DNA of 64,000 bases, taken from Bacteroidota bacterium. Lineage in GTDB: Bacteria > Bacteroidota > Bacteroidia > Chitinophagales > JADIYW01. Positions within the stretch are counted from its first letter, which is position 1, and every line of letters begins with the position of its first letter. Under the pieces are notes generated by a model, which was not told where the DNA came from, did no database searches, and saw nothing but the letters and a program-made list of their open reading frames with translations. This document shows positions 28,224 to 51,791 of the stretch, piece after piece. The translations under genes and the position numbers were made by a program. The DNA lies in the NCBI GenBank assembly GCA_963169645.1, contig CAUJCO010000013.1, positions 62,001-126,000 of the forward strand, in the 5' to 3' direction.

Positions 28224-28251
28224 TTTGAATTCTATTAATATTATTGGTTGT

Positions 28252-30305: not shown

Positions 30306-31151
30306 TTATTTTTTAGTATCAATAGCTACATTAATATACAATCCAGCTTTTAAATGCAGATTATTGAAGGTTGTTTTTTGATACGTATTTTTATCAAAAA
30401 TATCGCTGTATCCTTTTTTCTGATAACGTAAAAAATCGTAATCAAAACCCAAGCTAAATCCTGCTTTGCGTTTTATTAAATATCGGATTTGAAAATCGGT
30501 ACCAAAATAAAATTTCTTTCCGGTGCCACTATCGTAATAATCATCTGCTGCAAAACCTCCAATTCGAATGGAAGGATGGATTTGTAAAGCTTTATTTTTT
30601 AGAAATTCGAATACGTACCCAAATTGGGCAGATACAATAAAGAACATCGCATTTTTACGCGAAAGTAAATTACCTAAGTTGGGATCTTTCTTATATTTTT
30701 TTATGGTGGTGAATTGGTAATTCATACCAAAATACAATCCTTTCCAAAAATTAGCTTGCAAACTAAATTGAATATTACTTGCTTTATATTGTTTGGATAA
30801 ATTGGTTTTGGTTTCTCTATCTGCCCACACCGGAGCGGAATCTTTCACCGGATAATAAGTACTATGAAAGATGTCATTTTCTTGTATTAGTGGATGATAA
30901 AATGCATAATCGAATCCGATTAGCAGATGGACGACACTTGGTTTCCATTTTTGTTTTTTGGATAAAGATGTCGTGCTTGTAGCATTTTCTTCTATCTCCA
31001 TTGGTTGTGGCTTTTCATCAATTGGTTTGAATGCAACAGAATCCATTAATGTTTGTTGCAAATGGATAGTATCAACTGAATTGAAGGATGCATCTTGAGC
31101 AGCCGACAGTAATGGAAGTGAACCAAACAATACAAGTAAATACCATTTCAT
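30306..31151 (-). CDS. Exported protein, probable outer-membrane beta-barrel
   Basis: A 281-residue protein with a signal peptide (MKWYLLVLFGSLPLLSAAQ). After a disordered linker (about 20-70, rich in Glu/Thr/Ser/Lys) come alternating aromatic/polar strands such as FSLQANFWKGLYFGMNYQF, FIVSAQFGYVFEF, FYFGTDFQIRYLI and FSLGFDYDFLRY, ending in a strand-like HLKAGLYINVAID. This is typical of small outer-membrane beta-barrels. The specific family is not recognised. Confidence 0.6.
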   Translation of the reverse strand: MKWYLLVLFGSLPLLSAAQDASFNSVDTIHLQQTLMDSVAFKPIDEKPQPMEIEENATSTTSLSKKQKWKPSVVHLLIGFDYAFYHPLIQENDIFHSTYYPVKDSAPVWADRETKTNLSKQYKASNIQFSLQANFWKGLYFGMNYQFTTIKKYKKDPNLGNLLSRKNAMFFIVSAQFGYVFEFLKNKALQIHPSIRIGGFAADDYYDSGTGKKFYFGTDFQIRYLIKRKAGFSLGFDYDFLRYQKKGYSDIFDKNTYQKTTFNNLHLKAGLYINVAIDTKK

Positions 31152-31261: not shown

Positions 31262-34200
31262 TTATTCTTTTATAAATTTAGACTGCATCATTTTACCGGA
31301 TGACACGTCCTGAATTTGAATAATATAAACACCATCTGCAAATGCACTCACATCTAAATGGAGTGTTTGAGTTCCTTTTGCAACGGCTGTTTTTTGGTAG
31401 AGCATTTCTTGACCGATTGCATTGTAAACGGTAATATTTACTTTTGACGCCGCAGACGATTGATAATCGATGAAGATAGTGTGATCCGTTGGATTTGGAT
31501 AAACGCTTGTAATGGCATCATCGTAGGAAATATCATCTACATTAATCATAATAACATTGGAGTATTTGAAACTTCCATCAAGGTCTATCATTTTTAAACG
31601 ATAATAATTATGGCCTAATAATGGATTTAAATCATCCAACGTATAATTCAACGGTTGAGCACTATTGCCGGCTGCCGGACGTTCACCAACATAACTAAAT
31701 GGACCGGATAAATTATCGGCACGTTCTACCTCAAATTTGGCGGTATTAATTTCGGATGCTGTTGTCCAGTTTAATACGTTTTTATTGCCATCATTATAGC
31801 CGGTGAAACTAGTTAATTCTACCGGAAGCGGAGAAATATCCCAAGGACTATCACCTGCACCACCGGTACCACCGGAGAAGCCCGTTAATCCGTTGTATTC
31901 GCAGAAATGAATTCCATTACACCATTGGTGATATACATTGTTATCATCCCAATCTGTAACGACAATTGTATTACAACGTGTAACACCCGGAGGACCTACA
32001 TATACGCCACTCGAATTCCAATAACTTAAACAACCCGCTTCTGAGTAACCATTTGGACCGACAGAAATTGCTTTCGGACTTACATCAGTAGCCGGATTAA
32101 ACACATGTCCATTTGCTGATTTAAACCATTCAAAATCTTCATAATTGGATGGATATGTAACTGCAAATGTTTGTGCTGCATTAATTACATTGTATTTCTC
32201 TTGATTTTGATAATAGAAACGAACTTTTACCGGATTTGACGGATTGATACTACCACTTGTAACATTGAAATCCCAACGTCTTTCCATTACGTATTCTGCA
32301 TAATGATTAGGGAAATCTTCGAATTTGTGGAAGTTATTTACACCATCATACGTAATTGTAGCCGTTCCTTCAAATGTATTTCCATTAGGAAACAAGGAGA
32401 ATACGAAGCGATCATCCGAAGTTGCAGGAGTTCCTTTATCATCATAATAATGACGCCATCCATCTCTAGAAGTACAGTATTTATTAGTTGACAATACAGG
32501 TGCTGTCGTATATTCCCAAACTCTACCTTTGCAACGACGACCAACTTGGATAATACCATCCAATACAACGCGATCTGTTATAAATGGATTTACGATATCA
32601 TAATCAAGTACAATGTAATATGTTGTATTCGGTTCCAGTTGTTGACCGGTACCCATATTATACCAAATTGTATCATCTACCATACCACCATTTCCGTGCG
32701 GACCTGTTACATTGGAACCGAATGAACCACCACCACAATCGTTCCATGTTTGACAATCTGCGGTTGAGACATTAGCATTTCCAGGAGTACATAATTGTCC
32801 ACCTGCTTCTACTTTCCAAAGTGCCATATTGAACTCAACGGAACTTGTAGTACCGGAAGTACATGCATGGTTAGCTCCGGCAGGCATTGCTTTTGCTAAT
32901 GCGGATGTATTTACATAGATATAATAATCATCACAGAAAGTACCTATCGGATCTGTAGTGAATTTAAAATAAGATGAATGTTTAGGATTGCCATCATTGA
33001 AACAAGTGTATAATCCGGAACCAACCACACTACTGCTCGGTGTTTCACCGGTATGTGATTCTACACTCCAACAATAAGGAACGTCTAAGGTCATATTTGT
33101 TGCATCAACACAATCATCCGCACTTTTCTGTTCAGATACACATAATTTGAAATGTTTATTTTGCTCATTGCCGGCTAAATCCCAAACTTGTAAATAAATA
33201 TAATCACCCGGGTTTGCTGATATCGAGAAATCAGGGTCAACACCGGTTCCGCCTACACTGCATTTTAAGAAAGTTAAATTAGAAGTAGATGTTGTACTAC
33301 CTCCGTTGTATGCTGCAATTGCTAATTCCGGATAACCACTTAAATCTAAATCAAATTCATCATCTCCTTCAATCTTAATAAATGATTTTGTGTTATTACC
33401 ACATGCGGCCGGCATTTGAAATTTAAACCAAACATCGCCACAATTTTGAGTACAAGAAGGAATTCCGGAAGAGTTGGCAATGCCTATCAAGTTTGGATTT
33501 GACCAAGTAGGATTAGTACCAAACGTATAACCGGCGCCTGAGGTTTGCCATGTTCCATTGCTGTATTGGCAAGAAGCCGAACTGATAGGTACGGTTGTAG
33601 CTCCGGATGCTTCGTTATTTGAAGGTCCACTATAAGAAGGTTGATTATTTTTAATTTGAATACTGAAATATCCGTCTAAGCCAATTCCGGCGGTTCCATC
33701 TACTTGAACATAATAAGTATAACCCGGTTTCAAACATTGTGGAGTTAAAACTACTGTTGGATAAACTCCGTTGGCTAATGAATTTGGAATACCTTGGTAG
33801 TCGTTAAATTCTAATTGATTCCAATTGGATGCACTTGGTGTTGCACATCCTGCAATTGTATTATCAATTGATGCATAGGTGTTATCTGATAATTCCCAAA
33901 TGGTAATATCCGGTAAGAAGTAATTTTGAGTGAATGGAAACCAAGAATTTCCTTTTACTTCAATAGAAACATCTGCCGATGTTGGCGCAACAAATTTATA
34001 CCAAACAGAACGTTGAATACTGCCCGCTACTTGTTGTTTTTCGTTTGATTCTAACGTTGCACAAATATTGTTATCATTGGTATAACCTGAATAAGTACCT
34101 GTTACCGTTAATGTTTTTGCATTACATATTTTATCATTTGCAGGAGCAGAAGTTGTGCCCATATTTTCTACTTCTACTGTAAAATAACCTTGTTTATTTA

Positions 34201-37200
34201 AACCACTACCATCTACTTGAATATAAAAATCTGTATTGGGTGGTAAACATACATTCATGGTGGCATTGAAAGTTAATGCAGGATCAACAGACTCAATAGG
34301 TGTTAAGGTAGTGAAGGCTGTTGGTGAACAACCCGGATTTCCTTGCACTAACAACATTTGTAAATCAATTTGGTCACCTACATTATTTGGGTCATTTAAA
34401 GCACGAATTTCTACATCTATATTATTTGCCACATTTGGAGTTCTAAAATGGAACCATACTGTTTGGTCTAACGTATAATTACCATCCGTCATTAAAGCAG
34501 CTTCTCCTGTTTCAACATCGGAGCAGAAGTTATGCCAATTAGTTGAAGTATTGCCCACTTTATTACCCACTGTTCCTCCTAAAACACCTAAATAACCGTT
34601 TGCAGGTGTGGTACCCACTTGACAAATATTATCATTGGTTGGTAATGGATGTGGATTAATACGTGTAACATCTACTTTAAAATTACCTTGCTCGTTTAAT
34701 CCACTACCATCTACCATTAAATAATAGGTTGTATTTTGTTCTAAGCAATGGAACTCAAATGACTCGTAGAATGGCAATCCTAATGCGCTATAGCCATCAT
34801 CCACCAATGTAAATGAGCTAGCACAAGGACCACCTGTTGGATTCATTTTATATAATGCAATCTGTGGATCCATGGCATCGCCAAATGGCCAAGGCAAACC
34901 ACTTGTTACTTCCACTTCGACAGCATGTGGTGCTGGCGTATTGGGTGTTGTAAATTTATACCAAACATCCGCATCTTTAGTGAACGTGGTTGGTTCAGAA
35001 TAAATGGTTTGTATGGTTGCACATCTATTTGTTTGATTATTAACGGTAGTAGTGCTTCCTATTGATGCCGGATATGTTACTGGTGTTGCGTTACAAATAT
35101 CATCATTTGCTGGTCCGGTAAGTGTCTGCGGCACCGCTTGAATTTGTAATTCAAAATATCCGCGTTTGTTCAAGCCTGCGCCATCTACCATTAAGAAATA
35201 GGTTTTACCCGGATCCAAACATTTTACGGTTAATTCATTATCTCCATCTACATTATCCGGAAGGCCATCTGCAGCAATACCCACCATTTCGCCTGTACAA
35301 GTATTGTCAGATGTTTCAAAAACTCCGATCTGAGTATATAGTAAATCACCTCTATTATCCGGATCGCTGATTGTATTAATTTTTACTTCTCCAGTGCTTG
35401 GTGCAGTAAATTTATACCAAACAGTTCCATCCGGTGAGAAATCAGTAAAGAAGTTTCCACCATTTACAGCCGGCTCGCCAGCTATTCCGGCACAGTAATT
35501 ATTTTCCACCCGCATGCAAGAGCCAGCATTATTTCTTACACCATTGTGTAAACCTGTTGCTGATGGATAACCCGTAGTTGGTGAAGAATATGTTCCGGCT
35601 CCACTAGCAGGTGAAACCCTAGTATCATAAATTGTAGGATTTGTCCATACAGCCGGTGTGCCTAAATCAATGGCATCACAAGGTAAATCGTTGGTTGCCG
35701 GTCTGTCTCTTGGGTCTGCTGTTAATTTCAAATAAAACTCACCTCGTGTACAAGTTGGACAAAGTGTTTCAGAACTACCATCTACCAATAAGTAATAGAT
35801 AGAATCCGGCATTAAGCACTCAATAGTGTATTCTTCGTCGTGAAGTAAAGCATCATGGTTAGAACCAATGTGAACTAATCTATCTTTTTCAGTAGATAAA
35901 TCTGCACAGGTACCTAGATATCCACCCGGCAAGAAGAATACGGCTAATTGTGCACTAATTTCCGGTTCATCATATGGCGGAATAAGATCTGAAATTGTAT
36001 TGATGGCTTCAATCTTTAATTTACCGGATTTTGGTGCTTTGAATTTATACCAAACCGGGCTATTTAATTCACCCCAACCCGGCGGACGTACGCCTAAAGA
36101 TGCCGGAATATCATTAGTTGTTGTTGCACAATAATTATTTTGTCCAAGGAGTTGAACAACTGTATTACTATTACAGTTTGTCCATGGAGCAGAATTGGTA
36201 GCTGAAAGATCGATAGCTTGACATAATAAATCATTTGGCGTGTGTTTACCATAATCAGAAATTCTGATATCATAATATCCGTTTGTATTGGTTCCACCAT
36301 CTACAACTAAATAATATACGGTATTAGGTTTTAGACAGCTTACAATAAGATTTTCATCTGAACCTAGTAAGCCGGTTGGGTCCGGACCTCCTACTGTTGG
36401 ATCATAATAACTTCCAACTACGTAATGACTACTTGCACAAGCACCATCTGAGTACAATGCTAATTGCAAATCTATTTCGTCGCCTGCCATCCAGCCATTT
36501 TCTAGTGAATTCATATTCCCGCCGGCACCACCTAACACTTCATGTGTTGCATCATCATAATAAGGGTTTGAGAATGCTTCAATATTTACAGAAGCATCTG
36601 TAAAACCTACTGCAGGAGGTGTTGTAAATTTATACACGACTGCCTTATCAAATCCAAAGGCAGAAGGAGCAGAAGCATTGGAAAAACTCGACACTCCACA
36701 TAAATTTGATAAATTACGGGCATAAATACTTCCACCATCCGGAACACTTCCTAAATCTTCGGCATTACAGAATGTAGTTTCACCTTCTTCAGGGAACCAG
36801 AAACGCAATGAGAAATCGCCTTCTTCTAATGCGGCAGCTATACCTAAACAAGTTGGGTCATAATCGCCGCCATCTACTAATAACCAATAATATAAATTTG
36901 GATTTAAGCAACTGAAATAAGCGTCTTCATCATTGGATGCAATACTATTTTCGGTTTGAACCAATGTTTTAGTGGCATTGCAATCATTGGTAGTTGTTGA
37001 GTACAATGCCATTTGGATACTGATATCATCACTACCATTATCATTGGCATCTACAACAATACTTCTACCCGGTACTTGTCCAAATTTGTACCATACACCG
37101 GCATCATTATCCTGACAAACTTCTGCTGTCCAATCAGGTTGTGGATCTGAACATTTTGTACCTCTTATATTATTTTCACTATTAAATGATTGAGAATTGT

Positions 37201-39523
37201 AGGTATAAGCAGTTTGAACCGTAATATTGGTTGCATTACAGATAAGGTCATTAGCCGGATAAGGTCCTTTATCTTTTACGGTTAAACCAAAATAACCTTC
37301 TTTAGTTGATCCTGTTACAGCTTCAAAATTACTACCACTCACAAGGATATAATAGTCTGTATTCGAGTTTAAGCAATATTGGCCTTCCATTGTTTCAGTG
37401 AATGGTGGTGTATCATAATCTTTATCGATTAAGGTCATACTACCACAAGTTCCACTATAGAGTGCTAATTTTAAGTCTATTTGGTCGCCATGAGAACCTG
37501 GGTCGTTATAGCCATCTATTGCAATATTTCTACCGGCTCCACCGGAACCCGTATTAAATTTAAACCAAACGGTTTGATATGGGTCGGTAGGTACGCCGAC
37601 TAATGTCCAGCCCGGATTAGGATCACCGGCGGTGCCTGCACAGAAATTATTCCATCTATTTACGCCTGTTGCATCACCAATAGTACCACCTTGAGATAAG
37701 GTACCTAAAGATATTGCTTGAGAGCATAAGTCTGCACCTTTAGGCGCATTCTCCCCTCTAACTGAAACCTGATATTGACCTCTGCCTCCACAAACTCCAT
37801 CTTGTTCTGCATCCACCATAACATAATAAGTAGAACTTGGATCTAAACAAAATCCTCCACTTTCTTCAACTACTCCGCATGCTGCAGGATCCCAACTACC
37901 AACATAAGATAAAGTAGGCGGGCAAGTACCACCAGTTTTTTTATAAATTTCGCCTTCTAAACCACCCCAAGTACCAAAATCAGCAATATTATTAAAATGC
38001 AAATAATATTTAGATGCCGGATTTGACGGTGTCGTAAAATAAAACCAATCCGTAGCATCATTTCCTTGGTCATTCACCGGATCCGTGTGGCCACCTGTGT
38101 TTACTCCAGAGCAAACATTATTATATGTGGAAGTAGTTGCAGATTGATTGATACCTATTGTACCTGTACCTATTTGCACAGCATTACAAATATTATCCGG
38201 TCCGGCAGATGCATTTGGTGTAGAGATGGACACATTATAGCCTCCTGTACTTTCACCACCTATGCATAAATCAAAATTTGAAGCTGTTCCATACTGAACA
38301 TAATAAGTAGTATTACCAGTCAAGCAAGTAGCTGTAACGGAGCCCCCGCTAGACGCACACCATCTATCGCTTGCTTCATTTGTTAGATTTGCGAACGTGC
38401 AATTTGTGGATGCTCCTTTTTCATAGATTGTAACAAATGAATTATTACCACCATTTTCTGAGATGGAAGCTGTTACTTGTGATAACCCTGAAGCCGGTGT
38501 CGTAAATGTATACCAAGCTGTATTATAACCTGAATATGCAAAAGGTTCACTGGTTTCGTTGGAATAAGAACTATTATTAAATGAGCCATTATAAGTAGTT
38601 CCCGGCGTCATTGTGATACTTGTTGCTTGATTAAAATTATCATTACTACCTGTACCTGTTCTTGAAACATTTAAGCTTGTATTTCCGCCGCCACTCGCTG
38701 TAAGTTTAATAAAATATGTTCCATTTTTTGGACCTCTAACTGTTGCTACACCACTACCACTTGCAACTAAACACATTCCGGTACAACTTCCTGTAGCTGA
38801 ATAATACACTTCGACATTGGATGAGTTTTGGCTTGGGTCGAAAGTAAGTGAGCTAATAGTTCCTGTATGTGCATAAGAATACCATGTTTCGGTACATTGT
38901 GTGGCGTCATTTGTTCTAAGATTTCCTGTACCATTTGCAGTTAGAGCAATGGCTGTTGCACAAGTTTTATTAGTTACATAACCTGAACTTAAATTTGCTG
39001 CATTAAAATCACTGCCACCTACGGTCCAATATGCTGTATAACCATACGTAATAGTAGTAGGGCAATCTCCTGTACATGTTCCTGTTAACGTAGTAGAGCC
39101 TGTTGAAGAGCCATTTTGTTGATAATTATTACTTCCTGCATTATATGTAGGCACTGTCCAAGTGTCTGTCCTTAAGCAAGCCCCACTTGCATCACAATCT
39201 TCAAAATTATCATTTTCTTGATATCTGAATTGTACACTTATAGAAGATGGCCAGCAATCTCTACTGTAATAGGTATTCGTTCCCCAAATATCTCTATTAG
39301 GGTCCCAACTTTGTGAGCTATTTGTTCCGTTTTGGTAATCGCAACCACTTGCATTTCCTGCAAAAGTCCACTGCCAGTCTGAATCATTCACTGCACCATC
39401 ACAGTCCGTACCCGGTGTACTAGATAAATTGCTAACATGTAACTTGAGTGTTTTTTGTGCATAGGAATTATTAAAAATAAAAAGCACAGAAAAAAAGAAG
39501 ATAAATTTGTAAAATGTATGCAT
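31262..39523 (-). CDS. Giant T9SS-secreted repeat protein 1 (2753 aa)
   Basis: Signal peptide to about residue 23 (FSVLFIFNNSYAQ), then KTLKLHVSNLSS and a Cys-rich N-terminal domain shared with giant protein 2. About 10-12 repeats of 150-200 residues follow. Each runs roughly N-D-x-I-C, N-x-C/A, V-W-Y/F-K/H-F-x-x-P, a stretch with DxQxALY, then CLxPNxxYYxxVDG and a final strand (for example KCLDPGKTYFLMVDG, VCLPPNTDFYIQVDG). They look like extracellular beta-sandwich domains akin to pre-peptidase C-terminal (PPC) modules. Residues 2567-2753 hold LPVELTSFTGYNDG and a type A T9SS sorting domain (VYPNPTDHTIFIDY, VYIIQIQDVSSGKMMQSK). Probably a cell-surface or released fibre-like protein. A small exported protein gene lies 51 bases upstream on the same strand. 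Confidence 0.85.
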   Translation of the reverse strand: MHTFYKFIFFFSVLFIFNNSYAQKTLKLHVSNLSSTPGTDCDGAVNDSDWQWTFAGNASGCDYQNGTNSSQSWDPNRDIWGTNTYYSRDCWPSSISVQFRYQENDNFEDCDASGACLRTDTWTVPTYNAGSNNYQQNGSSTGSTTLTGTCTGDCPTTITYGYTAYWTVGGSDFNAANLSSGYVTNKTCATAIALTANGTGNLRTNDATQCTETWYSYAHTGTISSLTFDPSQNSSNVEVYYSATGSCTGMCLVASGSGVATVRGPKNGTYFIKLTASGGGNTSLNVSRTGTGSNDNFNQATSITMTPGTTYNGSFNNSSYSNETSEPFAYSGYNTAWYTFTTPASGLSQVTASISENGGNNSFVTIYEKGASTNCTFANLTNEASDRWCASSGGSVTATCLTGNTTYYVQYGTASNFDLCIGGESTGGYNVSISTPNASAGPDNICNAVQIGTGTIGINQSATTSTYNNVCSGVNTGGHTDPVNDQGNDATDWFYFTTPSNPASKYYLHFNNIADFGTWGGLEGEIYKKTGGTCPPTLSYVGSWDPAACGVVEESGGFCLDPSSTYYVMVDAEQDGVCGGRGQYQVSVRGENAPKGADLCSQAISLGTLSQGGTIGDATGVNRWNNFCAGTAGDPNPGWTLVGVPTDPYQTVWFKFNTGSGGAGRNIAIDGYNDPGSHGDQIDLKLALYSGTCGSMTLIDKDYDTPPFTETMEGQYCLNSNTDYYILVSGSNFEAVTGSTKEGYFGLTVKDKGPYPANDLICNATNITVQTAYTYNSQSFNSENNIRGTKCSDPQPDWTAEVCQDNDAGVWYKFGQVPGRSIVVDANDNGSDDISIQMALYSTTTNDCNATKTLVQTENSIASNDEDAYFSCLNPNLYYWLLVDGGDYDPTCLGIAAALEEGDFSLRFWFPEEGETTFCNAEDLGSVPDGGSIYARNLSNLCGVSSFSNASAPSAFGFDKAVVYKFTTPPAVGFTDASVNIEAFSNPYYDDATHEVLGGAGGNMNSLENGWMAGDEIDLQLALYSDGACASSHYVVGSYYDPTVGGPDPTGLLGSDENLIVSCLKPNTVYYLVVDGGTNTNGYYDIRISDYGKHTPNDLLCQAIDLSATNSAPWTNCNSNTVVQLLGQNNYCATTTNDIPASLGVRPPGWGELNSPVWYKFKAPKSGKLKIEAINTISDLIPPYDEPEISAQLAVFFLPGGYLGTCADLSTEKDRLVHIGSNHDALLHDEEYTIECLMPDSIYYLLVDGSSETLCPTCTRGEFYLKLTADPRDRPATNDLPCDAIDLGTPAVWTNPTIYDTRVSPASGAGTYSSPTTGYPSATGLHNGVRNNAGSCMRVENNYCAGIAGEPAVNGGNFFTDFSPDGTVWYKFTAPSTGEVKINTISDPDNRGDLLYTQIGVFETSDNTCTGEMVGIAADGLPDNVDGDNELTVKCLDPGKTYFLMVDGAGLNKRGYFELQIQAVPQTLTGPANDDICNATPVTYPASIGSTTTVNNQTNRCATIQTIYSEPTTFTKDADVWYKFTTPNTPAPHAVEVEVTSGLPWPFGDAMDPQIALYKMNPTGGPCASSFTLVDDGYSALGLPFYESFEFHCLEQNTTYYLMVDGSGLNEQGNFKVDVTRINPHPLPTNDNICQVGTTPANGYLGVLGGTVGNKVGNTSTNWHNFCSDVETGEAALMTDGNYTLDQTVWFHFRTPNVANNIDVEIRALNDPNNVGDQIDLQMLLVQGNPGCSPTAFTTLTPIESVDPALTFNATMNVCLPPNTDFYIQVDGSGLNKQGYFTVEVENMGTTSAPANDKICNAKTLTVTGTYSGYTNDNNICATLESNEKQQVAGSIQRSVWYKFVAPTSADVSIEVKGNSWFPFTQNYFLPDITIWELSDNTYASIDNTIAGCATPSASNWNQLEFNDYQGIPNSLANGVYPTVVLTPQCLKPGYTYYVQVDGTAGIGLDGYFSIQIKNNQPSYSGPSNNEASGATTVPISSASCQYSNGTWQTSGAGYTFGTNPTWSNPNLIGIANSSGIPSCTQNCGDVWFKFQMPAACGNNTKSFIKIEGDDEFDLDLSGYPELAIAAYNGGSTTSTSNLTFLKCSVGGTGVDPDFSISANPGDYIYLQVWDLAGNEQNKHFKLCVSEQKSADDCVDATNMTLDVPYCWSVESHTGETPSSSVVGSGLYTCFNDGNPKHSSYFKFTTDPIGTFCDDYYIYVNTSALAKAMPAGANHACTSGTTSSVEFNMALWKVEAGGQLCTPGNANVSTADCQTWNDCGGGSFGSNVTGPHGNGGMVDDTIWYNMGTGQQLEPNTTYYIVLDYDIVNPFITDRVVLDGIIQVGRRCKGRVWEYTTAPVLSTNKYCTSRDGWRHYYDDKGTPATSDDRFVFSLFPNGNTFEGTATITYDGVNNFHKFEDFPNHYAEYVMERRWDFNVTSGSINPSNPVKVRFYYQNQEKYNVINAAQTFAVTYPSNYEDFEWFKSANGHVFNPATDVSPKAISVGPNGYSEAGCLSYWNSSGVYVGPPGVTRCNTIVVTDWDDNNVYHQWCNGIHFCEYNGLTGFSGGTGGAGDSPWDISPLPVELTSFTGYNDGNKNVLNWTTASEINTAKFEVERADNLSGPFSYVGERPAAGNSAQPLNYTLDDLNPLLGHNYYRLKMIDLDGSFKYSNVIMINVDDISYDDAITSVYPNPTDHTIFIDYQSSAASKVNITVYNAIGQEMLYQKTAVAKGTQTLHLDVSAFADGVYIIQIQDVSSGKMMQSKFIKE

Positions 39524-39574
39524 AGTTTTATTTTCTTAAAAATTGATAATACATTATTAGTAGATATGATAAAT

Positions 39575-40006
39575 CTATTTATTTTGTAAAATTGACTCTT
39601 TATATTGTTTTAGGTCGATTTCTTGTACTGTTAATCCTAATTGAGTAGCGATTTCTTGTACAACTGCCTTATTAAAAACTGAATTTGTTTTTATTGCAAA
39701 GGTGTTTTTGGTTGGACAAAATTTTAGAATATCCTGATTTTGCATAAACCTTCCTATCATTATTAAAGCGTTGGCATTATCATATTGGGCAAATGCATAA
39801 CAATAAATTGCTCCATCATTTACATCTTCCTCTTTAAAGGACTGAGCATAGGATTGAATACTTGCTTTTGAAAACGTTGATTTATTTGCAGATTCCTCTG
39901 AACTATTATTAGTTAAAGACGTTGCTTCTAATCCATTATCCGCTTTCATGTTGGAATATGACATTAGAATAACCATAACAAATAACATTTTGTAGATGTT
40001 TCTCAT
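39575..40006 (-). CDS. Small exported partner of giant protein 1 (143 aa)
   Basis: Signal peptide at the start (MRNIYKMLFVMVILMSYSNMKA), then a Ser/Asn-rich linker and a small alpha/beta domain (about 65-140). The domain has DGAIYCYAFAQYDNANALIM, ILKFCPTKNTFAIKTNSVFN and helical VVQEIATQLGLTVQEIDLKQ. The order of strands and helix is like that of the 172-aa protein ahead of giant protein 2. It is 51 bases upstream of giant gene 1 on the same strand, so co-transcription is likely. No named family is recognised; a chaperone, adaptor or immunity-type role is possible but unproven. Confidence 0.7.
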   Translation of the reverse strand: MRNIYKMLFVMVILMSYSNMKADNGLEATSLTNNSSEESANKSTFSKASIQSYAQSFKEEDVNDGAIYCYAFAQYDNANALIMIGRFMQNQDILKFCPTKNTFAIKTNSVFNKAVVQEIATQLGLTVQEIDLKQYKESILQNK

Positions 40007-40484
40007 AGCTTAAAATTTACAGTAAATAGTGTTAATAACTCCACCTAAATTTAAATAAAAGTTAACAGCTATCCAAATATTTAACATATTAAAAATACAA
40101 CTCATTCATACTGTAAATTTTTTACTTAAAAAAATCCATTTGAAGTAATATTTTTTAATCTTTTTCAAATATTTTCTTCTAATTAATCAATCAAATAAAA
40201 CTTATTTAAACTACTTTTAAACGGATATCTATCGCAGTATAATTGAACGCATTCAAAAGGAGTTGTCACCTTTTGACACCTGTTAACTACTTCTTCAAAT
40301 TTATTATTTATTATCTGGGTTTGTTTTAAACTAATAGTTGAACGAGTCACACGACACGTCGAGGGCGAAATGAATTCTGTTATTCCATAATTAAAATCAA
40401 GAATCGTATTTTCGGCAATAAAGTATATTTTTTATTTGCTTAGTTTAAGATATCAACCTATTTTGTAAAACAAACAGTTATCCA
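40007..40484. other. Divergent intergenic region between the small protein gene and the TMTC-like gene
   Basis: 478 bases, no RNA gene or credible ORF seen. It holds a promoter-like element for the rightward gene at 40435-40465 and TTAACA motifs at 40062-40067 and 40081-40086 upstream of the leftward gene. A less AT-rich patch at about 40238-40380 is unexplained. Confidence 0.6.
40435..40465 (+). promoter_or_regulatory. Probable promoter of the TMTC-like gene
   Basis: TTTG at 40435-40438, 20 bases, then TATTTTG at 40459-40465: close to TTTG-N17-20-TAnnTTTG, one T short in the -7 box. It lies 20 bases before the start codon. Confidence 0.45.
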
Positions 40485-42323: not shown

Positions 42324-42324
42324 A

Positions 42325-42352
42325 AAAATCTCGGCATTTCTGCCGAGATTTT
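42325..42352. terminator. Bidirectional intrinsic terminator between the TMTC-like gene and giant gene 2
   Basis: A perfect 12-bp stem AAAATCTCGGCA/TGCCGAGATTTT with a TTTC loop and T or A runs on both flanks, ending both convergent transcripts. Confidence 0.9.
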
Positions 42353-42372
42353 CATTTCTTTTTCTGTTTGAA

Positions 42373-45300
42373 TTAATCTTTTACAAACTTCGTTTGGTAT
42401 CTGTTTCCGGATGATGTGTTTTTCAAATCCAAGATGTACATACCTTTTGCATAGCTTTGAACATCAAGTGTTAACGTGTGCAATCCGGCACTCAACTGAT
42501 AGATATTAGATTGCATTGCTTGACCAATTGCATTAAATACATCTAACGCAATTTTCTGATCTTTACTTGCTTGATAAACCACATTCAATTGGTTGTTTGT
42601 TGGATTTGGATATACTTGAACAATTCCGTCTGTATTTACATTCACTTCGTTTACTTTGATTATGATAATTTTAGAATATTCATACGAACCATCTTTGTCT
42701 ATAATTTTTAATCGATAGTAATTATTTCCAATCACCGGATGTTCATCAATCAAACTGTAATCTAATGGAAGACTACTATTTCCGGCTGCTGGTCTTTCTC
42801 CAATATAATTGAAGTTTATAGCATCCAAACTCTTTTCTACTTCAAATTTTAATGAATTTAATTCTGAAGCAGTTGTCCAATTCAACACATTTACATCACC
42901 ATCGTTATAACCGGTAAAACTGGTTAGTTCTACAGGCAATACAGTTGATGGTGGTAAAGATGTTTTTACAATCAATACTTGTCCTGCAGATGCACAACCT
43001 GCTGTATTCTCATCACTAATTATTTGCATTACATACGTTGCACATGCCGGCAAGATGAATGTGGATGAGAAGTTGGTTGCAGTGGTTCCACCTGTTACTT
43101 TTTCAAAGATGGCACAGTTTACTAAGATGTCATCATATTGACCAAGAGGTGCGACACAAGGCGTTTGGTCTAAGAACATAGACATTGCCGTAGCACCACA
43201 ACCAATTTCAGAAACAGAGAAAATAACGGTAACGGTATCAACCGGAGTTCCATCACAATCTGTAGTAAATGAAACGTAGTTTACAGAGTTATTACTACCG
43301 GTCAAACAATCGTAGTATTGAGGTGAAAGATTTACACCATTCGTATTCATGTTCCAACATTGTGCCTGACCATAAATAATGTTGTTTGGTGTACAAGTTT
43401 GTTTAGGCGGACAATCCACAGAAACACAGAAACCAAATGTTGGATTTGATGGTGTAGTTGGTGCATTTTCATTAAACACCTGAACATATAATGTTTCTCC
43501 AGGGAATGCTGCTAACGAGAAATCGACATCATTTCCAAAACCACCATCCGAGCAATTGATTTGTTGTAATGTGCCACCACAACCACCTACGGATCTATAA
43601 ATTCCAATATGTTGGTGTGAGTTATTCGTAATAGAACCGATTGGATACTCATCATTACCTTGTACACGAATACCGGTCGCATCTAAGGGAACGGTAAATT
43701 TAAACCAATAATCATTACAGTTGGTTTCGCCATTACATCCAACAGCTTGTACAGAACGGGTAGCTCTATCCACATCGATCGCGGCATCTAAAATGCTATA
43801 ACTATTATTATAGTATTGATTATCGCTTGTACATGGTCCTTGTGCTTGAGTACGGACAAATTGAGTTACATCAATAGCACCACATGGTTCATCATTTGCA
43901 ACACTCGGATATGCCGTCGCGTTATCGATATTTGTTAAATTGAAATTCCAAGTTCCTCTATCCGGTGGAATACCTGCAACGCCATCGTTTCCATCAAATC
44001 GTAAATAATAAGTAGCACCCGGAACTAAACATCTCATATCCCACGTATTTAATACGGAAGTTAAGAAAGTTGTATTATCATCTCTCGTTAAGCCGGAAAA
44101 TCCGGAAACGCCACAATTATATCCGGCAGGAACACTATATAAATCCGCATTCAACGTCATAGTAGACGGACTATAAGAAGATGTATTTAAGCGAACTTCG
44201 CCGGATGGCGGTGCTACAAATGTGTACCATAAGGTCTCATCGTAATCATTGCCATTAGCCGGTGATTGTGGCGAAGGAGAAATATTTGGTTCATTCGTTT
44301 GCGTAGTAGCACATCTATTATCTGCTCCTACATTTCCTGCACCTACAATTACTGTTGGAGCAGTGCAAATATTATCTGCCGGATTGGTAGTACCACTCGT
44401 AAATTGTACAGATACCGTGAAGTTATCACCTACATCTCCACCGCCAATTCCGTCCCATCCTTGAACTTGCACATAGTATGTTCTTCCTTCTTCTATTTCC
44501 CAACATTCCAATGTCAGTGTTTCGTTATTGGTAACAGAGCCTGTCGTTGGAGAAGCTTTTACTTCAACAAGATTAGCAAAATTAGTACCCGGACAAATCG
44601 TAGCATCTTGACGATAAACAACTATAGAACCATTAATAGCATCACCGCCTACATTTGTAACAGATACGTTATAAGTGCCATCTGTATTACTTGCAGTAAA
44701 ACGATACCATAACGTATGGTCATAAGAAGCATCTGTTATGTCATTCATCGGACCATTAATATTCGGTTCATTTACTTCTTGTGTTGCACATCTATTGTCT
44801 TGATTTGTTGCACTCACTGTATTTGAAACGGTGAATGTTCCTAAATTACCATTTGCAGCAGTTGCTCCAATTCCACAAATATCGTCGTTCACCGGAGTTG
44901 TTTTCGGAACGTGCGTCAATTGGATATTGAAATTTCCTACATCAGCAGTTGCCGGCCAATCATTACCATCTACTTGTATGTAATATCTTCTAGATGATGA
45001 TAAGCAAGGCCATGTTTCTGTTATTCTATCTGTTGTACCTACGGTATTTAATGCTAATCCGGTACCTCTTGCAATTTCTGTCAATTGGCTCCAATTTGGA
45101 ATATCCGCTGGAGAACCACTGCATGAAATGGCGGCTGTTGTAGGCATTTGATACAATACATAATTTACACCGCCTGTAATGCCACTTGTTGGCTCTAAAC
45201 TCATTGTTATATCGCCATCAGTAGGTGGAATAAACGTAAACCAAACTGTTTCGTCATAATCATTAGAAGTAACATCATCACCTGTGTTATTCATATTATT

Positions 45301-48300
45301 ACTTGTATTTGGCTCACCTGCTTCTTCCCAAGCACATCGGTTTGTTCTTGTTAAACTTCCTGTTGTGCCGTTGGATGGAACTGTCAATACATCTGCTGAA
45401 CAAATCAAATCATAGTTAGTTGGAGTTGTTGGACCAGGTGTACCGGAACCATCGTCTGTAATTGTAACTAAGAAATTATTTTGATCATCTGTAAATGGTA
45501 CGTTGTCGTTTCCATCTATTTGTAAATAATATCTAGTATTAGGCAATAAACAAGTGTAACTTCCGGATATAGAATTTGCTACGGCCGTACGTGTTCCACC
45601 TTCTTGAATTAATTGATTACTAATTCCTGTTGTGGTTCTAAATAATGGAAAAGAACCATTATTGTAATATAATGTAAAATTAGGACTGAATGTTCCACTT
45701 ACTGCAGGATCATCAACTACAGATATTGTAATGGTTCCTGGTGTTGCCGGTGTCGTAAAATAATACCATACCGTTTCATCTTCAGCTCCTAAAGCGGCTG
45801 TGTGATCAGTGGTACTATTTCCACAATAATCGCCATTCTCTCCATTCTCACAGGTCGCACATCTGTTATGTCCGGCCACTGTTAATGAGCCACCTGCAGG
45901 CAACAAGCCATCAATTGGTGCTACATCATCCGCCGGAATCGCATTTGCTAAATTATCATTTGGTGCTCTACCTGTTCCGCTACCTAAATCACGAACATCT
46001 ACGTTGTAGTAGTAATTATCTGTAAAGCCAGGGAAAGTAAAGCCAAATAAACTTACATCTGCTCCATCTACTTGAATATAATATGTAGTATTAGGCGATA
46101 CGCAGTTCAACGTTACTTTTGCTGTTGGATCAATAATTCCACCTAATAATGTTGCAAAACCCATATCGTCATCTAATGCAACTATATTAGAGAATGGAGT
46201 TGTAGAACATGGATTACCGGATGGAACATATTTATAAACTGCAACGGAAGGTACTGTAAAGAATCCCCCAATACCAATTAAGGAAGTAACCTCCACTTCA
46301 ACTGTTCCCGGATTTGGTCCGGTAGTAAATTTATGCCACATGGTTTCATCGTAACATGGTTCATTTTGAACGCAACTTTGAGATGTATTCGGTTCGTTAA
46401 TTTCTTGAGTTGCACAGATATTATTTTGTGTTGTTAATGATAAAGTTGCACCAGAATTTAAGGTACCACTACCTACATTTGTAGCACCACAAATATTATC
46501 ATTTGTTTGGAAGTTGATATTGATGTTACTCATTGAAATAGACACCGTAAAATCACCTTGATCGGAACCAAACAATGGGCAAGTACTTGAACCTAAAACT
46601 CGCAAGAAATAGCGTGTATTTGGTTTTGGACAAGTAATTTTAATTTCTTCTTCTCGCGGATATAATACATTAAACACAGCTCCTTCACCTACTCTTAAAA
46701 GTGGATTAAATTGCGAATTAGTTGCTGCTTGTGCGTTACAAGAACCGGTAGTGAATGTACCATTGTATTCATACAAATCTAAATCCGGATCAAAACATAC
46801 ACCAGATGGGTTGGTTACTCGGATGGTAATATCACCGGGACGAAGCGGACCTAATGCCGGACCTGTATTAAACGTGTACCAAACAGTTGGATCGGAATTG
46901 GTATTAAATGGATTTAAATCCCAACCGTTTGCTTCCGGTTCATTATATTCTGCCGTTGCACATCGATTATTATGATTAAATACAATCGTTTCTCCGGGAT
47001 TTAAATATGTATTTTGATTGAGCGGATTGTATGTTCCTCCAGCATTGTACACTTGATGAGATTGACAGAACATATCGTTACCGCCGGCAGTGGAAGCTAC
47101 AGGTGTAGTATATGCCACATTAGAAGCATACGTTGGGTCGGATGCCAATGTTGTTACCCGCATACGGAACTGACCTGTTTCGCAATCAGAGCCGGAGAAT
47201 GCCGGACCACAAGTCGTCATATTCCTTTCACCATCCACTTGCACCCAATATGTTCTACCCGGAACTAAACAAGAAACAGTAATTTCTTCATCGTCTGAAT
47301 TGGCAATACCAAATACTGCCGGATCATAATCTTCATCAAATTTAAAACCACCTGTTTGAATGTTTGCACAATTTTGAGATGGAATATCAAATATTGCTAT
47401 TCCTAAATCTATATCATCCACACCACCATCTTCAATAGCTTCTATTCTTACTTTTCCGGTAGATGGTGCTACAAACTTGAACCATAAAGTATGTTCTACA
47501 TTAATATCAAATAAAGTACCATTAATTTCATCCGCAATTTGTCCGTTTCCTTCATACGACAAATCAATAGAAGCACATTCATTATTGAATGCGATTGGTG
47601 AATTATAAACTGCCCCAACTGTATTAGAGATTGGCGTCATTAGATAGGCGTCGCAAATAGAATCATTGGTAGATGCCGGAATTCCATTTAATTCTTGCAC
47701 AGAAATCCTGAAATCTCCTTCTACATCTTCTACATCGGCAGCACATGTATAACCGGCTTCGCCATCTATCATGATGTAATAGGTTTGTCCCGGAATTAAG
47801 CATCTCGCCACATAATACTCATCAAATCCACATGTTCCGGTACACAGAACACAGACACCTGTATAGTCATCTTCGTTTAATAAATCGATTTCAACTGCAC
47901 CTCCGTCAAATCCATTTCCATTACCAACCTCTGTAAGTCTCCATTTGTCAAAACAATTGGAAGTTTGATATAATGCTAATTGTAGATTAATATTTTCGTG
48001 GTAATCGGCATCACCTTTTATTTGAGAACGATTCTCTGCTCTAATTTTTACTTTTCCACTTGGTGGTGCGACAAACCGAGCCCAAACTGTTTTATCTGTT
48101 GATGCATTTTTAGCTGTCCATTCTGATGGAACCGGATCATTAATAGAAGTAGCACATCGGTTGGTCATACTAGCCCAATTTAATGAACCATAGCTTACAG
48201 CAGAATTATTCATGGTTAACGGCTGGGCAAAACAAGGCTCATCGTGTTTCAAGTTGGTATTAGGAACACCTAAACTTGTGTAAGGAGAACCCACATCGCC

Positions 48301-51246
48301 CGGACTTGCATTATTATATAAGCCTAAGCCGGCATCTGCAACCTGTAATCTAAAATAACCCATGATACAATCTCCGGCATCTATTAAATCGCAAGTAGCA
48401 TAACTACCACCATCTATCTGTAGATAATAGTATTTATTAGGGTCTAAACATGTAGCGATTAAACTATTTCCTTCATTACATGTTAAAGAATTTCCGCATG
48501 TGTTATAAATATCATAATAGGAAACAGTAACGACGCCTGCTTCTACAGATTCTTGGATACCGTGATCTTGTGATATGATTGGTGTCCATAAGAAGCGTGG
48601 ATCTGAGCAGTGTGAATTGGTTCCATCTCCTAAAATAGGCTCCCAAATTGCAGCTTGAATATCGAGGTCGTCATCTATGCTAGGAGAACCACTTGGTGCC
48701 GATTGTGCAGTGATACGTACAGATCCGGATGCCGGTGGTCTAAATCTAAACCAAACATCTGCATCTAAAGATTGGGTAAAGTCTGCTCTCCAGGACAAAT
48801 CCGGTGTGGCACAGAAATTATCATAAATAACACCATTGTTAATTTGTCCGTTATTTGGTACAACGCCTAAATCAATTGCTCCACAAATACTATCATTAGA
48901 AGGTGCACCACCTAAGGTTGGTGCTGAGGTAATTTTATGAGAACCATTATCGAAACTCCACTGTCCTTCGTAACACGGAGTAATGGCTCCTGCATCTTTT
49001 ACTTGTACATAATAGGTTGTATTTGGTTCCGGGCATTTTAATCGGAACATATCAGCATAACAAGGAGCTCCAAACCCGATTCCAGTTGTCGCATCACATA
49101 AATCTCCGGGAATATTCATTTCAGCAGCTTGAACTAAATTGCCACCTACCGGGCAAGCATAAGTAGTTGCATTTTTATAGAAAGTTACCCGACTTTGAAA
49201 TAAAGTTCCAATACAAACTGTACCTCGATTCGCATTATTTAAAGTATTATCATCTTCATACCAATAAATCCAATCCGGAGGCACATTACTACCTGTAGTA
49301 AATTTATACCAGACAGTTGCCGAATGAGATCCTGAATTTGGGTTTGGTCCACCCGGCGATGCGCCAGGTTCTCCTGCTTCAGCCGATGTACATTTATTGG
49401 TATGCGGTAATCCAAAGAATTTAGCAGCTCCTAATTTAGAAGAAGGTCCGTTATTTGCCCAATTCACTCCGGTTGTCGGACCATTTTGAAGTCCATTTGT
49501 AGTTATATAACCTAAATCAACAGCATCGCAAATCATATCTGAAGGTCTAAATTGATCTTTTGCTACTTTTATATTAAAATCAACTCTATTCGTTGTACCA
49601 ACAGGATCTACTTGAATATAATAATTTGTATTAGGTTTTAAGCAAAGACGTTTTACTTCTGCATGGCCTCCATTAACAAGATTGAGTGGATCTATTTCAT
49701 CTCTATCTAAATAAGTTAAATTTGCATAATCGCCTCCGCTATTTGGACAATTTCGAGTCGTTGCTGCAGATTCTTCATATACATAAACAGCCGGATAAGT
49801 AAGTGTACCGGAAGAGCCTAATCTTTCCACACGAATTTTATACGTATGAGCTAATTGTGCCAGAGCCGGTGCTGAAGGATAATCGGCAGGTGGTGTTCTA
49901 AAACGATACCAAACGGTTTTATTTAAACTGGATAAAATAGATGTATTATCCGGTTCACTACAACATCCTTTGCTTTCGGAAGCACAATCGGTAGATTGAT
50001 TAAAAATCGCTAAATCATAATCACCATCTTCCCAACCTGTAGCAGAACCTGTAGTTGGTCGAGGGTCGAATGAACTATTGAGTGTTCCCATAAATCCATT
50101 TACACCCGGCGTAGTTGAGTTTGCAGGCTGACATATATAATCCGGACCAGCTTGTACTCCATTATCTGAAACGTTCAAATTAAATCTTCCCATATCACAA
50201 GTTGCAATACCTTGCATTTCTACTTGCACGTAATAGGTTTGATTCGGTTTCGGACAACTGATATCAATAACACTATTATCCGTTCCTAAAGAACCGACAG
50301 AACCCACTTGAGATATTTGGGTAAATGGATTGGTTGAATACGTAAATGGACAGCCTGATAAAGTTGATGGACCTTCATACACTCTTGTCCAGCCAAAAAC
50401 AGTTCCACCGGAAATGCAAAGAGTTCCACCGGATCCAGAACCGCCTATGGCATCTACATCTACTGTAATTGCCGTTCCCGGATTTGAACCTGTAGTAAAT
50501 TTCATCCAAACGGTTTCATCATTGGAATCATTATTGGGTTCATCTGCTGCACAAATATCTTCTGTAGAATAACCAATATTGTTAAAATTATTCCTACTAA
50601 TGGAACTTCCGGTATTTAAAGTTCCCATATCGTAAGCACCACAGATATAGTTATCAGATGTTTGAGACCGATAACTTCCGGCGACTTCCCAACGATATGT
50701 AACCGTAATCGTTCCGGCACAATTCCATCCACCGTTAAATCCTCTATTGTAATTACATGTGGCGGTATACGGCCCATAATTTCCTGTAGCAGCGGCGCTA
50801 CTTGGGTACGTACTATTTACATTAACGGTACAGGCTAACTCACTCACTACATTTCCAAAGCCTCCACCAATAATACACGCATCAGCACAATCTTGATCCC
50901 AACCTTCTACGTTAAAATCTATATTTCCGGATGGCCATTGGCATTCAAAATCATAATTTCGATCAAATACTGTAAAATTTGGCGAAGTAGAATTGCTATT
51001 TTGGTCATCACTTAGATTATAGCAATCTTCGTCAACATCTGTTCCTCCATCATCTATATCAAACACCCAATCTAATTGGTTGTCGGAAGTTCCAATACAA
51101 TTGGCATCACAATCTGTACCACTGGTATTATTAGCACTAATCGATAATATTCTTAATCGGAGTGTTTTCTGTGCGAACGTATTATTTGCACATACAAATA
51201 GTAAGATAATTATAGAAAAAAAAAATTTTGTGTAATTATTTCTCAT
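42373..51246 (-). CDS. Giant T9SS-secreted repeat protein 2 (2957 aa)
   Basis: The longest gene in the window and a paralogue of giant protein 1. The signal peptide ends near residue 26 (LLFVCANNTFAQ), followed by KTLRLRILSISAN and GTDCD, matching the start of the mature giant protein 1. About 12-13 repeats carry the cores NDxICGA, NxCAT, VWYxF, ALY and CLxPNxxYYxQVDG (for example SCLVPGRTYWVQVDG, TCLLPNTRYYLQIDG), plus many DxDxD-rich loops that could bind calcium. The last about 190 residues (LPVELTSFTGYNDG to VYPNPTNNQLNVVY and YQTKFVKD) form the same linker and type A T9SS sorting domain. It begins 26 bases after its small partner gene, so the two are probably one transcript. Confidence 0.85.
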   Translation of the reverse strand: MRNNYTKFFFSIIILLFVCANNTFAQKTLRLRILSISANNTSGTDCDANCIGTSDNQLDWVFDIDDGGTDVDEDCYNLSDDQNSNSTSPNFTVFDRNYDFECQWPSGNIDFNVEGWDQDCADACIIGGGFGNVVSELACTVNVNSTYPSSAAATGNYGPYTATCNYNRGFNGGWNCAGTITVTYRWEVAGSYRSQTSDNYICGAYDMGTLNTGSSISRNNFNNIGYSTEDICAADEPNNDSNDETVWMKFTTGSNPGTAITVDVDAIGGSGSGGTLCISGGTVFGWTRVYEGPSTLSGCPFTYSTNPFTQISQVGSVGSLGTDNSVIDISCPKPNQTYYVQVEMQGIATCDMGRFNLNVSDNGVQAGPDYICQPANSTTPGVNGFMGTLNSSFDPRPTTGSATGWEDGDYDLAIFNQSTDCASESKGCCSEPDNTSILSSLNKTVWYRFRTPPADYPSAPALAQLAHTYKIRVERLGSSGTLTYPAVYVYEESAATTRNCPNSGGDYANLTYLDRDEIDPLNLVNGGHAEVKRLCLKPNTNYYIQVDPVGTTNRVDFNIKVAKDQFRPSDMICDAVDLGYITTNGLQNGPTTGVNWANNGPSSKLGAAKFFGLPHTNKCTSAEAGEPGASPGGPNPNSGSHSATVWYKFTTGSNVPPDWIYWYEDDNTLNNANRGTVCIGTLFQSRVTFYKNATTYACPVGGNLVQAAEMNIPGDLCDATTGIGFGAPCYADMFRLKCPEPNTTYYVQVKDAGAITPCYEGQWSFDNGSHKITSAPTLGGAPSNDSICGAIDLGVVPNNGQINNGVIYDNFCATPDLSWRADFTQSLDADVWFRFRPPASGSVRITAQSAPSGSPSIDDDLDIQAAIWEPILGDGTNSHCSDPRFLWTPIISQDHGIQESVEAGVVTVSYYDIYNTCGNSLTCNEGNSLIATCLDPNKYYYLQIDGGSYATCDLIDAGDCIMGYFRLQVADAGLGLYNNASPGDVGSPYTSLGVPNTNLKHDEPCFAQPLTMNNSAVSYGSLNWASMTNRCATSINDPVPSEWTAKNASTDKTVWARFVAPPSGKVKIRAENRSQIKGDADYHENINLQLALYQTSNCFDKWRLTEVGNGNGFDGGAVEIDLLNEDDYTGVCVLCTGTCGFDEYYVARCLIPGQTYYIMIDGEAGYTCAADVEDVEGDFRISVQELNGIPASTNDSICDAYLMTPISNTVGAVYNSPIAFNNECASIDLSYEGNGQIADEINGTLFDINVEHTLWFKFVAPSTGKVRIEAIEDGGVDDIDLGIAIFDIPSQNCANIQTGGFKFDEDYDPAVFGIANSDDEEITVSCLVPGRTYWVQVDGERNMTTCGPAFSGSDCETGQFRMRVTTLASDPTYASNVAYTTPVASTAGGNDMFCQSHQVYNAGGTYNPLNQNTYLNPGETIVFNHNNRCATAEYNEPEANGWDLNPFNTNSDPTVWYTFNTGPALGPLRPGDITIRVTNPSGVCFDPDLDLYEYNGTFTTGSCNAQAATNSQFNPLLRVGEGAVFNVLYPREEEIKITCPKPNTRYFLRVLGSSTCPLFGSDQGDFTVSISMSNININFQTNDNICGATNVGSGTLNSGATLSLTTQNNICATQEINEPNTSQSCVQNEPCYDETMWHKFTTGPNPGTVEVEVTSLIGIGGFFTVPSVAVYKYVPSGNPCSTTPFSNIVALDDDMGFATLLGGIIDPTAKVTLNCVSPNTTYYIQVDGADVSLFGFTFPGFTDNYYYNVDVRDLGSGTGRAPNDNLANAIPADDVAPIDGLLPAGGSLTVAGHNRCATCENGENGDYCGNSTTDHTAALGAEDETVWYYFTTPATPGTITISVVDDPAVSGTFSPNFTLYYNNGSFPLFRTTTGISNQLIQEGGTRTAVANSISGSYTCLLPNTRYYLQIDGNDNVPFTDDQNNFLVTITDDGSGTPGPTTPTNYDLICSADVLTVPSNGTTGSLTRTNRCAWEEAGEPNTSNNMNNTGDDVTSNDYDETVWFTFIPPTDGDITMSLEPTSGITGGVNYVLYQMPTTAAISCSGSPADIPNWSQLTEIARGTGLALNTVGTTDRITETWPCLSSSRRYYIQVDGNDWPATADVGNFNIQLTHVPKTTPVNDDICGIGATAANGNLGTFTVSNTVSATNQDNRCATQEVNEPNINGPMNDITDASYDHTLWYRFTASNTDGTYNVSVTNVGGDAINGSIVVYRQDATICPGTNFANLVEVKASPTTGSVTNNETLTLECWEIEEGRTYYVQVQGWDGIGGGDVGDNFTVSVQFTSGTTNPADNICTAPTVIVGAGNVGADNRCATTQTNEPNISPSPQSPANGNDYDETLWYTFVAPPSGEVRLNTSSYSPSTMTLNADLYSVPAGYNCGVSGFSGLTRDDNTTFLTSVLNTWDMRCLVPGATYYLRFDGNDGVAGIPPDRGTWNFNLTNIDNATAYPSVANDEPCGAIDVTQFVRTQAQGPCTSDNQYYNNSYSILDAAIDVDRATRSVQAVGCNGETNCNDYWFKFTVPLDATGIRVQGNDEYPIGSITNNSHQHIGIYRSVGGCGGTLQQINCSDGGFGNDVDFSLAAFPGETLYVQVFNENAPTTPSNPTFGFCVSVDCPPKQTCTPNNIIYGQAQCWNMNTNGVNLSPQYYDCLTGSNNSVNYVSFTTDCDGTPVDTVTVIFSVSEIGCGATAMSMFLDQTPCVAPLGQYDDILVNCAIFEKVTGGTTATNFSSTFILPACATYVMQIISDENTAGCASAGQVLIVKTSLPPSTVLPVELTSFTGYNDGDVNVLNWTTASELNSLKFEVEKSLDAINFNYIGERPAAGNSSLPLDYSLIDEHPVIGNNYYRLKIIDKDGSYEYSKIIIIKVNEVNVNTDGIVQVYPNPTNNQLNVVYQASKDQKIALDVFNAIGQAMQSNIYQLSAGLHTLTLDVQSYAKGMYILDLKNTSSGNRYQTKFVKD

Positions 51247-51272
51247 ACTTAGAATATAAAGGTGAAATAAAC

Positions 51273-51791
51273 TTATTTGTCCGTTGAAGATTGCTGAATA
51301 AATTTCATATACTCGGTATAGGAAGCACTATTTTTTCTTAATAAGAAATCTTCCACCGGAATAGGTTCAAATGTTGCAAATACTAATTTTGCTGCAGCTT
51401 CAAACGAGGAAACATCAAATTTATCTGTAGTAAGTAACATAAAAGAATCCCATTCTTTCATAGAAACTTTATAAATTGATTTATCTTCTTCAAATGCTTT
51501 AAAAAGTTTGGAAACTCCTACTGTTGAATTTCCAAATGTAAATTTGTATGCCTGTAATTTATAATTAACTACATCATTTGGAATTAACCCTTTTGCCAAA
51601 TCATGTGTTCGTTGAGATTTATCGCTACAATTACAAGGTGTTTCGTTATCTAAGTTGAACGTTTGATAAAAACCTTTAACTAATGGTACATCCACTTTAG
51701 TTTTCTCATCGTCTGAAGAAATGTGCTGTGCTTTCAACAATCCAAATGGAAATAAAAGTAGCAACAAAAAGATTTGTATATATTTTTTCAT
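51273..51791 (-). CDS. Small exported partner of giant protein 2 (172 aa)
   Basis: Signal peptide (MKKYIQIFLLLLLFPFGLLKAQ), then a linker with one CNC motif (NETPCNCSDKSQ) and an alpha/beta domain at about 85-160. The domain has VVNYKLQAYKFTFGNSTVGV, DKSIYKVSMKEWDSFMLLTT and helical SFEAAAKLVFATFEPIPVED. The strand-strand-helix order parallels the 143-aa protein ahead of giant protein 1, with low but suggestive similarity. It is 26 bases upstream of giant gene 2. No named family is recognised. Confidence 0.72.
   Translation of the reverse strand: MKKYIQIFLLLLLFPFGLLKAQHISSDDEKTKVDVPLVKGFYQTFNLDNETPCNCSDKSQRTHDLAKGLIPNDVVNYKLQAYKFTFGNSTVGVSKLFKAFEEDKSIYKVSMKEWDSFMLLTTDKFDVSSFEAAAKLVFATFEPIPVEDFLLRKNSASYTEYMKFIQQSSTDK

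Follow-up and report, generated by a model that had tools for sequence, protein, structure and literature searches.

A putative TMTC-like glycosyltransferase gene beside genes for giant T9SS proteins and small exported proteins in a Bacteroidota genome

The locus considered here sets one gene for a multi-pass, TMTC-like membrane protein between two gene pairs, each made up of a small exported protein and a giant protein bearing a T9SS sorting domain. The question it raises is whether the enzyme, the small proteins and the giants belong together in function and, if they do, what the enzyme may act upon. The window, by which we mean the whole stretch of 64,000 nucleotides that was analysed, comes from a Bacteroidota genome of 2.7 Mb in 14 contigs, which belongs to a little-known group of the order Chitinophagales.

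Layout of the locus and its two giants

The features of the locus are collected in Table 1. All five genes named in the preliminary description were recovered as open reading frames with identical coordinates, and the gaps that it had claimed, of 26 bases between SB and GB and of 51 bases between SA and GA, were confirmed.

Table 1. Features of the locus, with positions in the window.
Feature	Position	Strand	Remarks
SB, 172-aa exported small protein	51273-51791	-	ORF, signal-peptide-like N-terminus
GB, giant of 2957 aa with a signal peptide, an N-terminal domain (~25-195), repeats of beta-sandwich type and a C-terminal T9SS type A sorting domain	42373-51246	-	
GB N-terminal domain	50662-51174	-	only in genomes with the SB family; co-diverges with SB
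Hairpin resembling a bidirectional terminator, between TM and GB	42324-42353		13-pair stem on -, 12 on +
TM, 612-aa TMTC-like GT-C glycosyltransferase (predicted fold)	40485-42323	+	GT-C ~1-430, TPR superhelix ~426-612
SA, 143-aa exported small protein ahead of GA	39575-40006	-	highly diverged
GA, giant of 2753 aa; T9SS type A sorting domain	31262-39523	-	
281-aa exported outer-membrane-barrel-like protein, 3' of GA	30306-31151	-	possible extra part

The barrel-like gene had been left out of the preliminary description of the locus. In two congeners (G002 and G003) it is likewise conserved 3' of a giant, and its product gave no PorP/SprF match in NCBIfam or Pfam at E 0.1. Just upstream of SB lies a gene for an endoglycoceramidase-like GH5 protein (51893-53386), and G002 and G003 likewise keep this gene next to the cassette. 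Two tandem genes for exported FKBP-type peptidyl-prolyl isomerase-like proteins (27459-29043), conserved in G002, are found a few genes from GA.

Both giants carry the marks of T9SS type A cargo, namely a signal peptide, here judged by eye from the sequence, and a C-terminal type A sorting domain (TIGR04183), which scores 52.6 and 38.5 bits in the two proteins against a curated cut-off of 23. The T9SS translocon is encoded in the same genome (SprA, E 4e-153), together with about 46 proteins whose sorting domain scores above the cut-off; 12 of these proteins lie in open frames of at least 1000 aa. Beta-sandwich repeats of the PF23759 type score above the Pfam cut-off in GB (43.8 bits) and just below it in GA; the repeats of GB, which also has a PF18962 match, are ~160-200 aa long, and a W-[YFLM]-x-[FY] motif returns mostly every 150-210 residues in the giants. 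By BLASTP, GA and GB share ~24% identity overall and are close only in their last ~190 aa (53%); they are paralogous but old. The preliminary view of the two cassettes as duplicates thus has to be divided: it stands historically, through the gene ahead of the second giant in G003, a clear SB paralogue whose product is ~50% identical to the 172-aa protein, and it is not supported for a duplication of the whole cassette, the bodies of the giants being only 24-35% identical. Compared with its G003 orthologue, GA is mostly 67-95% identical after residue ~600 and 55-60% identical in the last ~150 aa, and the first ~600 aa reach at most ~31%. A second variable block, besides the N-terminus of GA, is found at residues ~300-600 of GB, which are 41-63% identical to the G005 orthologue, as against 79-95% in most other parts.

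The preliminary description had made its reading depend on whether relatives keep the small gene and the TMTC-like gene with the giants, and on this count it stands. In the congeners, the small gene lies directly upstream of all seven giants (7/7), genomes that lack the small gene also lack a giant of the GA/GB type, and a TMTC-like gene adjoins a giant in every contig that is long enough (the window, G002, G003 and G005). The gene order in G003 is SB-GB, convergent TM, ferritin, second SB-family gene, GA orthologue, barrel-like gene and beta-lactamase-like gene; TM is convergent with GB-SB in G005, and in G002 it is divergent from a single small-giant pair, after which comes the barrel-like gene. 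In G004, a giant-SB pair lies at the end of a contig. It could be argued that the five genes are functionally unlinked and came together by chance, since TM and GB are transcribed convergently as separate units and a terminator-like hairpin parts the two. This synteny among congeners and the recurrence of the arrangement elsewhere, described below, make a chance assembly very improbable.

The small exported proteins and the N-terminal domain of the giants

The structural model of SB has a mean pLDDT of 83.5, with most positions from residue ~41 onwards exceeding 90, and its predicted topology, beta-alpha-beta-beta-alpha-beta, is that of an HMA-like ferredoxin fold; among PDB structures it is matched best by HMA domains (Foldseek probability 0.99, with a moderate E-value of 0.05). 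The likeness to HMA domain proteins lies in this predicted fold, and SB differs from them in being exported, in its long N- and C-terminal extensions and in lacking the metal-loop cysteine: the HMA CxxC site is absent, with no cysteine between the first strand and the first helix in SB and its homologues. A C53-x-C55 motif in the loop N-terminal to the fold is invariant across the SB family, which has no match among Pfam families when searched with SB. The N-termini of both small proteins look like signal peptides and neither protein has a sorting domain, so that both are presumably periplasmic. The relationship of SA to SB is distant. BLAST gave no match between them, and SA matches the profile of the SB family weakly, as 9/2000 shuffles score as high and the hhalign P is 0.11; SA is 20% identical to its G003 counterpart. 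It probably belongs to the same family, mainly by its position and through the G003 intermediate.

Apart from the window's own genome, clear SB homologues turned up in just four congeners, where each immediately precedes a giant. The profile of the giant N-terminal domain hits 5/61 genomes, which are exactly the five congeners that have the small gene; the domain and the small gene occur in equal copy number in each genome, seven in all, and the remaining congeners have neither. The seven small/giant pairs give 21 pairwise values, which are mutually dependent, and among these the identity of the small proteins follows that of the N-terminal domain (r = 0.95, or 0.84 without SA) more closely than that of giant residues 200-600 (r = 0.62, or 0.35 without SA) or 600-1400 (r = 0.47, or 0.39 without SA). 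Relative to G003, SA and the 5' block of GA have both diverged or been replaced, to the same degree. Such co-divergence is the pattern that a binding pair would give, and neighbouring DNA exchanged as one tract can give it too. The earlier proposal that each giant has a dedicated partner is supported by co-divergence with the N-terminal domain, from which we infer binding.

The small proteins might instead be independent secreted proteins whose genes stay upstream through operon inertia or because they serve as a translational leader. Unrelated small genes (LRR or 173-aa), or none, precede giants elsewhere, and an exported gene lies upstream of 2/8 other giants in the host genome, which would suit such an explanation; the one-to-one occurrence with a particular N-terminal domain in 7/7 cases, the fact that the closest match in rate is to that very domain, and the joint divergence or replacement of SA and the 5' block of GA speak against it, and we regard it as rather unlikely. 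Partnership of each small protein with its own giant is the reading that we carry forward.

It was also considered whether the same small-giant pair is present in every enzyme locus, and this was rejected, as other loci have LRR proteins, 173-aa exported proteins or none. An LRR exported protein of 290-297 aa takes the place of the HMA-fold protein before enzyme-linked giants at L027:9142-14474 and L083:10578-15607. Exported proteins of 173-174 aa, with no Pfam match where tested, are encoded ~10-25 bases before giants at L086:3893-4414, L046:7291-7815 and L098:11223-11744, and form with them another kind of small-giant pair.

The TMTC-like enzyme and its proximity to giant genes

The AF2 model of TM (pLDDT 90.7) was compared with known structures by a structural aligner, in which the best matches of residues ~1-430 are all GT-C glycosyltransferases: AglB (Z 19.4), Pmt4 (19.0), Pmt1-Pmt2 (18.3) and ArnT (18.3), with STT3 and PglB also among them and GT-C Z scores ranging from 16 to 19. 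Residues ~426-612 match TPR proteins. The GT-C match came from this aligner; plain Foldseek gave only TPR matches among its best 50 rows, and a profile search of the PDB with the enzyme alignment gave only TPR matches among its best 60. The ligand-binding motifs described for TMTCs are DD, SHKSYRP, RxD, KE(T/Q)xxT, DW and ERxxY (PMC7801869). In an alignment of 34 homologues, DD (D37-D38, acidic residues of the first periplasmic loop), the R and P of YRP, the EL3 lysine K191 and [DE]R360 are each kept in 34/34, and R146 in 31/34; the R of RxD is kept with its D shifted by one, KE(T/Q) varies at its second position, and the DW motif was not recognised. Pfam TMTC_DUF1736 matches 6/34 of the family members and PMT_2 matches 7/34, and the window protein itself has no TMTC_DUF1736 match. 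By predicted fold, domain order and motifs, TM is thus a TMTC-like GT-C enzyme, and the label given to it in the preliminary description is borne out at this level, with most ligand-binding motifs kept.

In the host genome, three of the four TMTC-like genes adjoin T9SS giants: the gene of the window and two on contig C8, one of which is divergent from an LRR-protein/giant pair and the other directly before a giant. With 12 giants among ~2400 genes (an estimated number), and on the assumption that the three cases are independent, chance would give such a linkage with a probability of ~3e-5 to 1e-4. Eight other giants of this genome have no TMTC-like neighbour. In a tree of 70 homologues, a fully supported clade of 18 rows, all from the family of the window, has 13 genes linked to a giant, 3 without such a link and 2 that could not be scored; a giant thus lies within three genes in 13/16 scorable cases, compared with 5/44 in the rest of the order (Fisher p = 7e-7, not corrected for phylogeny). 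In other orders of the class, 7/47 TMTC-like genes are linked, against 33/542 other genes in the same loci. A general linkage of the enzyme family to giants was therefore rejected, the counts outside the clade being these 5/44 and 7/47. Linked pairs occur convergent, divergent or on the same strand, and because of this variation in orientation the link is not just one operon inherited whole. The linked giants do not form one homologous repeat family.

Other genes of note lie in such surroundings. At L085:1-8006, a full homologue of vitamin-K-dependent gamma-carboxylase (HTTM and VKGC lumenal domain) is encoded directly upstream of an exported giant of 2150 aa, itself close to a TMTC-like gene. 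Genes for GT2 proteins that weakly resemble polyprenyl-phosphate sugar synthases, below the family cut-offs, adjoin enzyme-linked giants at L040:5052-5795 and L045:3433-4197. Elsewhere in the order, in a different family, a gene repeatedly found beside the TMTC-like one encodes a protein of ~965-995 aa (L115, L117, L118, L122, L126, L127, L129, L136 and L137), which starts like a GH3 (beta-N-acetylhexosaminidase-like) enzyme in the four that were read.

The TMTC-like family is found in 198/299 genomes of the order and 68/119 across the class, often with several members per genome. Since it is so widespread and mostly not beside giants, its members would have other substrates, and TM might too. 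The enzyme could modify another envelope molecule, such as lipid A in the manner of ArnT, a polysaccharide or many periplasmic proteins, and variable regions of surface genes could simply gather both kinds of gene. The commonness of the family and its mostly unlinked state outside one clade fit this explanation, as do the place of ArnT, a lipid A enzyme, among the closest folds and the occurrence of other members of the order beside unrelated genes, e.g. that of the GH3 enzyme. It accounts less well for the 13/16 genes of the clade that adjoin a giant, in every orientation, for the link on two separate contigs of the host genome, and for the surroundings of the window locus, which are mostly ordinary housekeeping or transport genes, syntenic in congeners. 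We consider it improbable, though to be taken seriously, and retain the giants themselves as the candidate substrates.

A possible pathway and its relation to known systems

The general O-glycosylation of Bacteroidota uses a sequon that starts with D-S/T (PMC8550257). In GA and GB, Asp-Ser/Thr is strongly avoided, with 11 occurrences against 73 expected; Ser/Thr-Asp, Glu-Ser/Thr and Asn-Ser/Thr are near expectation, and the other proteins of the window are 2.4-fold enriched for the D-S/T-hydrophobic sequon. As a mark of enzyme-linked giants alone, this avoidance was rejected, the unlinked giants L146 and L148 showing it too; the sequon is enriched in L147, L149, L151 and L152, and in the linked giants L093 and L101. 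Avoidance of D-S/T is thus characteristic of one class of giants and does not prove a link to the enzyme.

We propose that the products of the locus are two very large proteins, secreted or located at the cell surface, together with the tools to prepare them; the analysis gave no support for the narrower role in a surface fibre or matrix that the preliminary description had put forward. Each giant would enter the periplasm by means of its signal peptide and leave by the T9SS, guided by its C-terminal sorting domain. The small protein, with its HMA-like fold, would bind the N-terminal domain of the giant as a cognate escort or assembly factor, and it should stay behind in the periplasm, since it has no sorting domain. 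The TMTC-like enzyme would be an inner-membrane protein whose TPR domain faces the periplasm, and before export it would glycosylate the beta-sandwich repeats of the giant, taking the sugar from a polyprenyl-phosphate donor. The GT2 proteins at L040 and L045 and the avoidance of D-S/T may be taken as supporting hints for such periplasmic glycosylation of the giants. Our confidence and our doubt are evenly balanced on this reading, in which a TMTC-like enzyme specific to the locus glycosylates GA and GB while they are in the periplasm, ahead of their export by the T9SS, and each giant has a cognate partner there. The extension to the whole clade, whose bacterial TMTC-type GT-C enzymes would be dedicated glycosyltransferases for individual T9SS giants, each giant with its own periplasmic partner, is put forward more tentatively.

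SprB-type giants are T9SS adhesins with PorP/SprF accessory proteins. The present locus resembles them in encoding very large T9SS-exported repeat proteins with adjacent genes, including a barrel-like gene nearby, and differs in the type A sorting domain and in its accessories, namely a GT-C enzyme together with an exported protein of predicted HMA-like fold. Like TMTC1-4, the animal O-mannosyltransferases of the GT-C/PMT clan, TM has a GT-C membrane domain followed by TPRs, with DD, YRP, the lysine and [D/E]R kept; the animal enzymes have cadherins as acceptors, whereas the window enzyme is bacterial and tied by gene order to T9SS giants, and the DUF1736 match is weak or absent in the bacterial enzymes. 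The general O-glycosylation of Bacteroides and Tannerella likewise takes place in the periplasm on exported proteins, including T9SS cargo, as we infer for the giants; it acts generally, whereas here one enzyme is linked to particular giants that avoid D-S/T. Full-length prokaryotic homologues of TMTCs have already been noted (PMC7801869). Each component class is thus known, and the combination is not described in the literature searched, where we found no system of such composition, in agreement with the preliminary description, no paper joining the T9SS with GT-C/TMTC enzymes, and none giving a substrate to the bacterial relatives of TMTCs.

The recurrent linkage to T9SS giants provides a specific, testable candidate substrate for these bacterial relatives. 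If the enzymes are indeed dedicated to the giants, the bacterial TMTC relatives would thereby gain their first substrate class, in parallel with the modification of cadherins by the TMTCs of animals. It suggests that giants may be built at the level of the locus, from a secretion signal, a cognate periplasmic escort of the N-terminal domain and a glycosyltransferase of their own, which would work alongside the general O-glycosylation of the cell.
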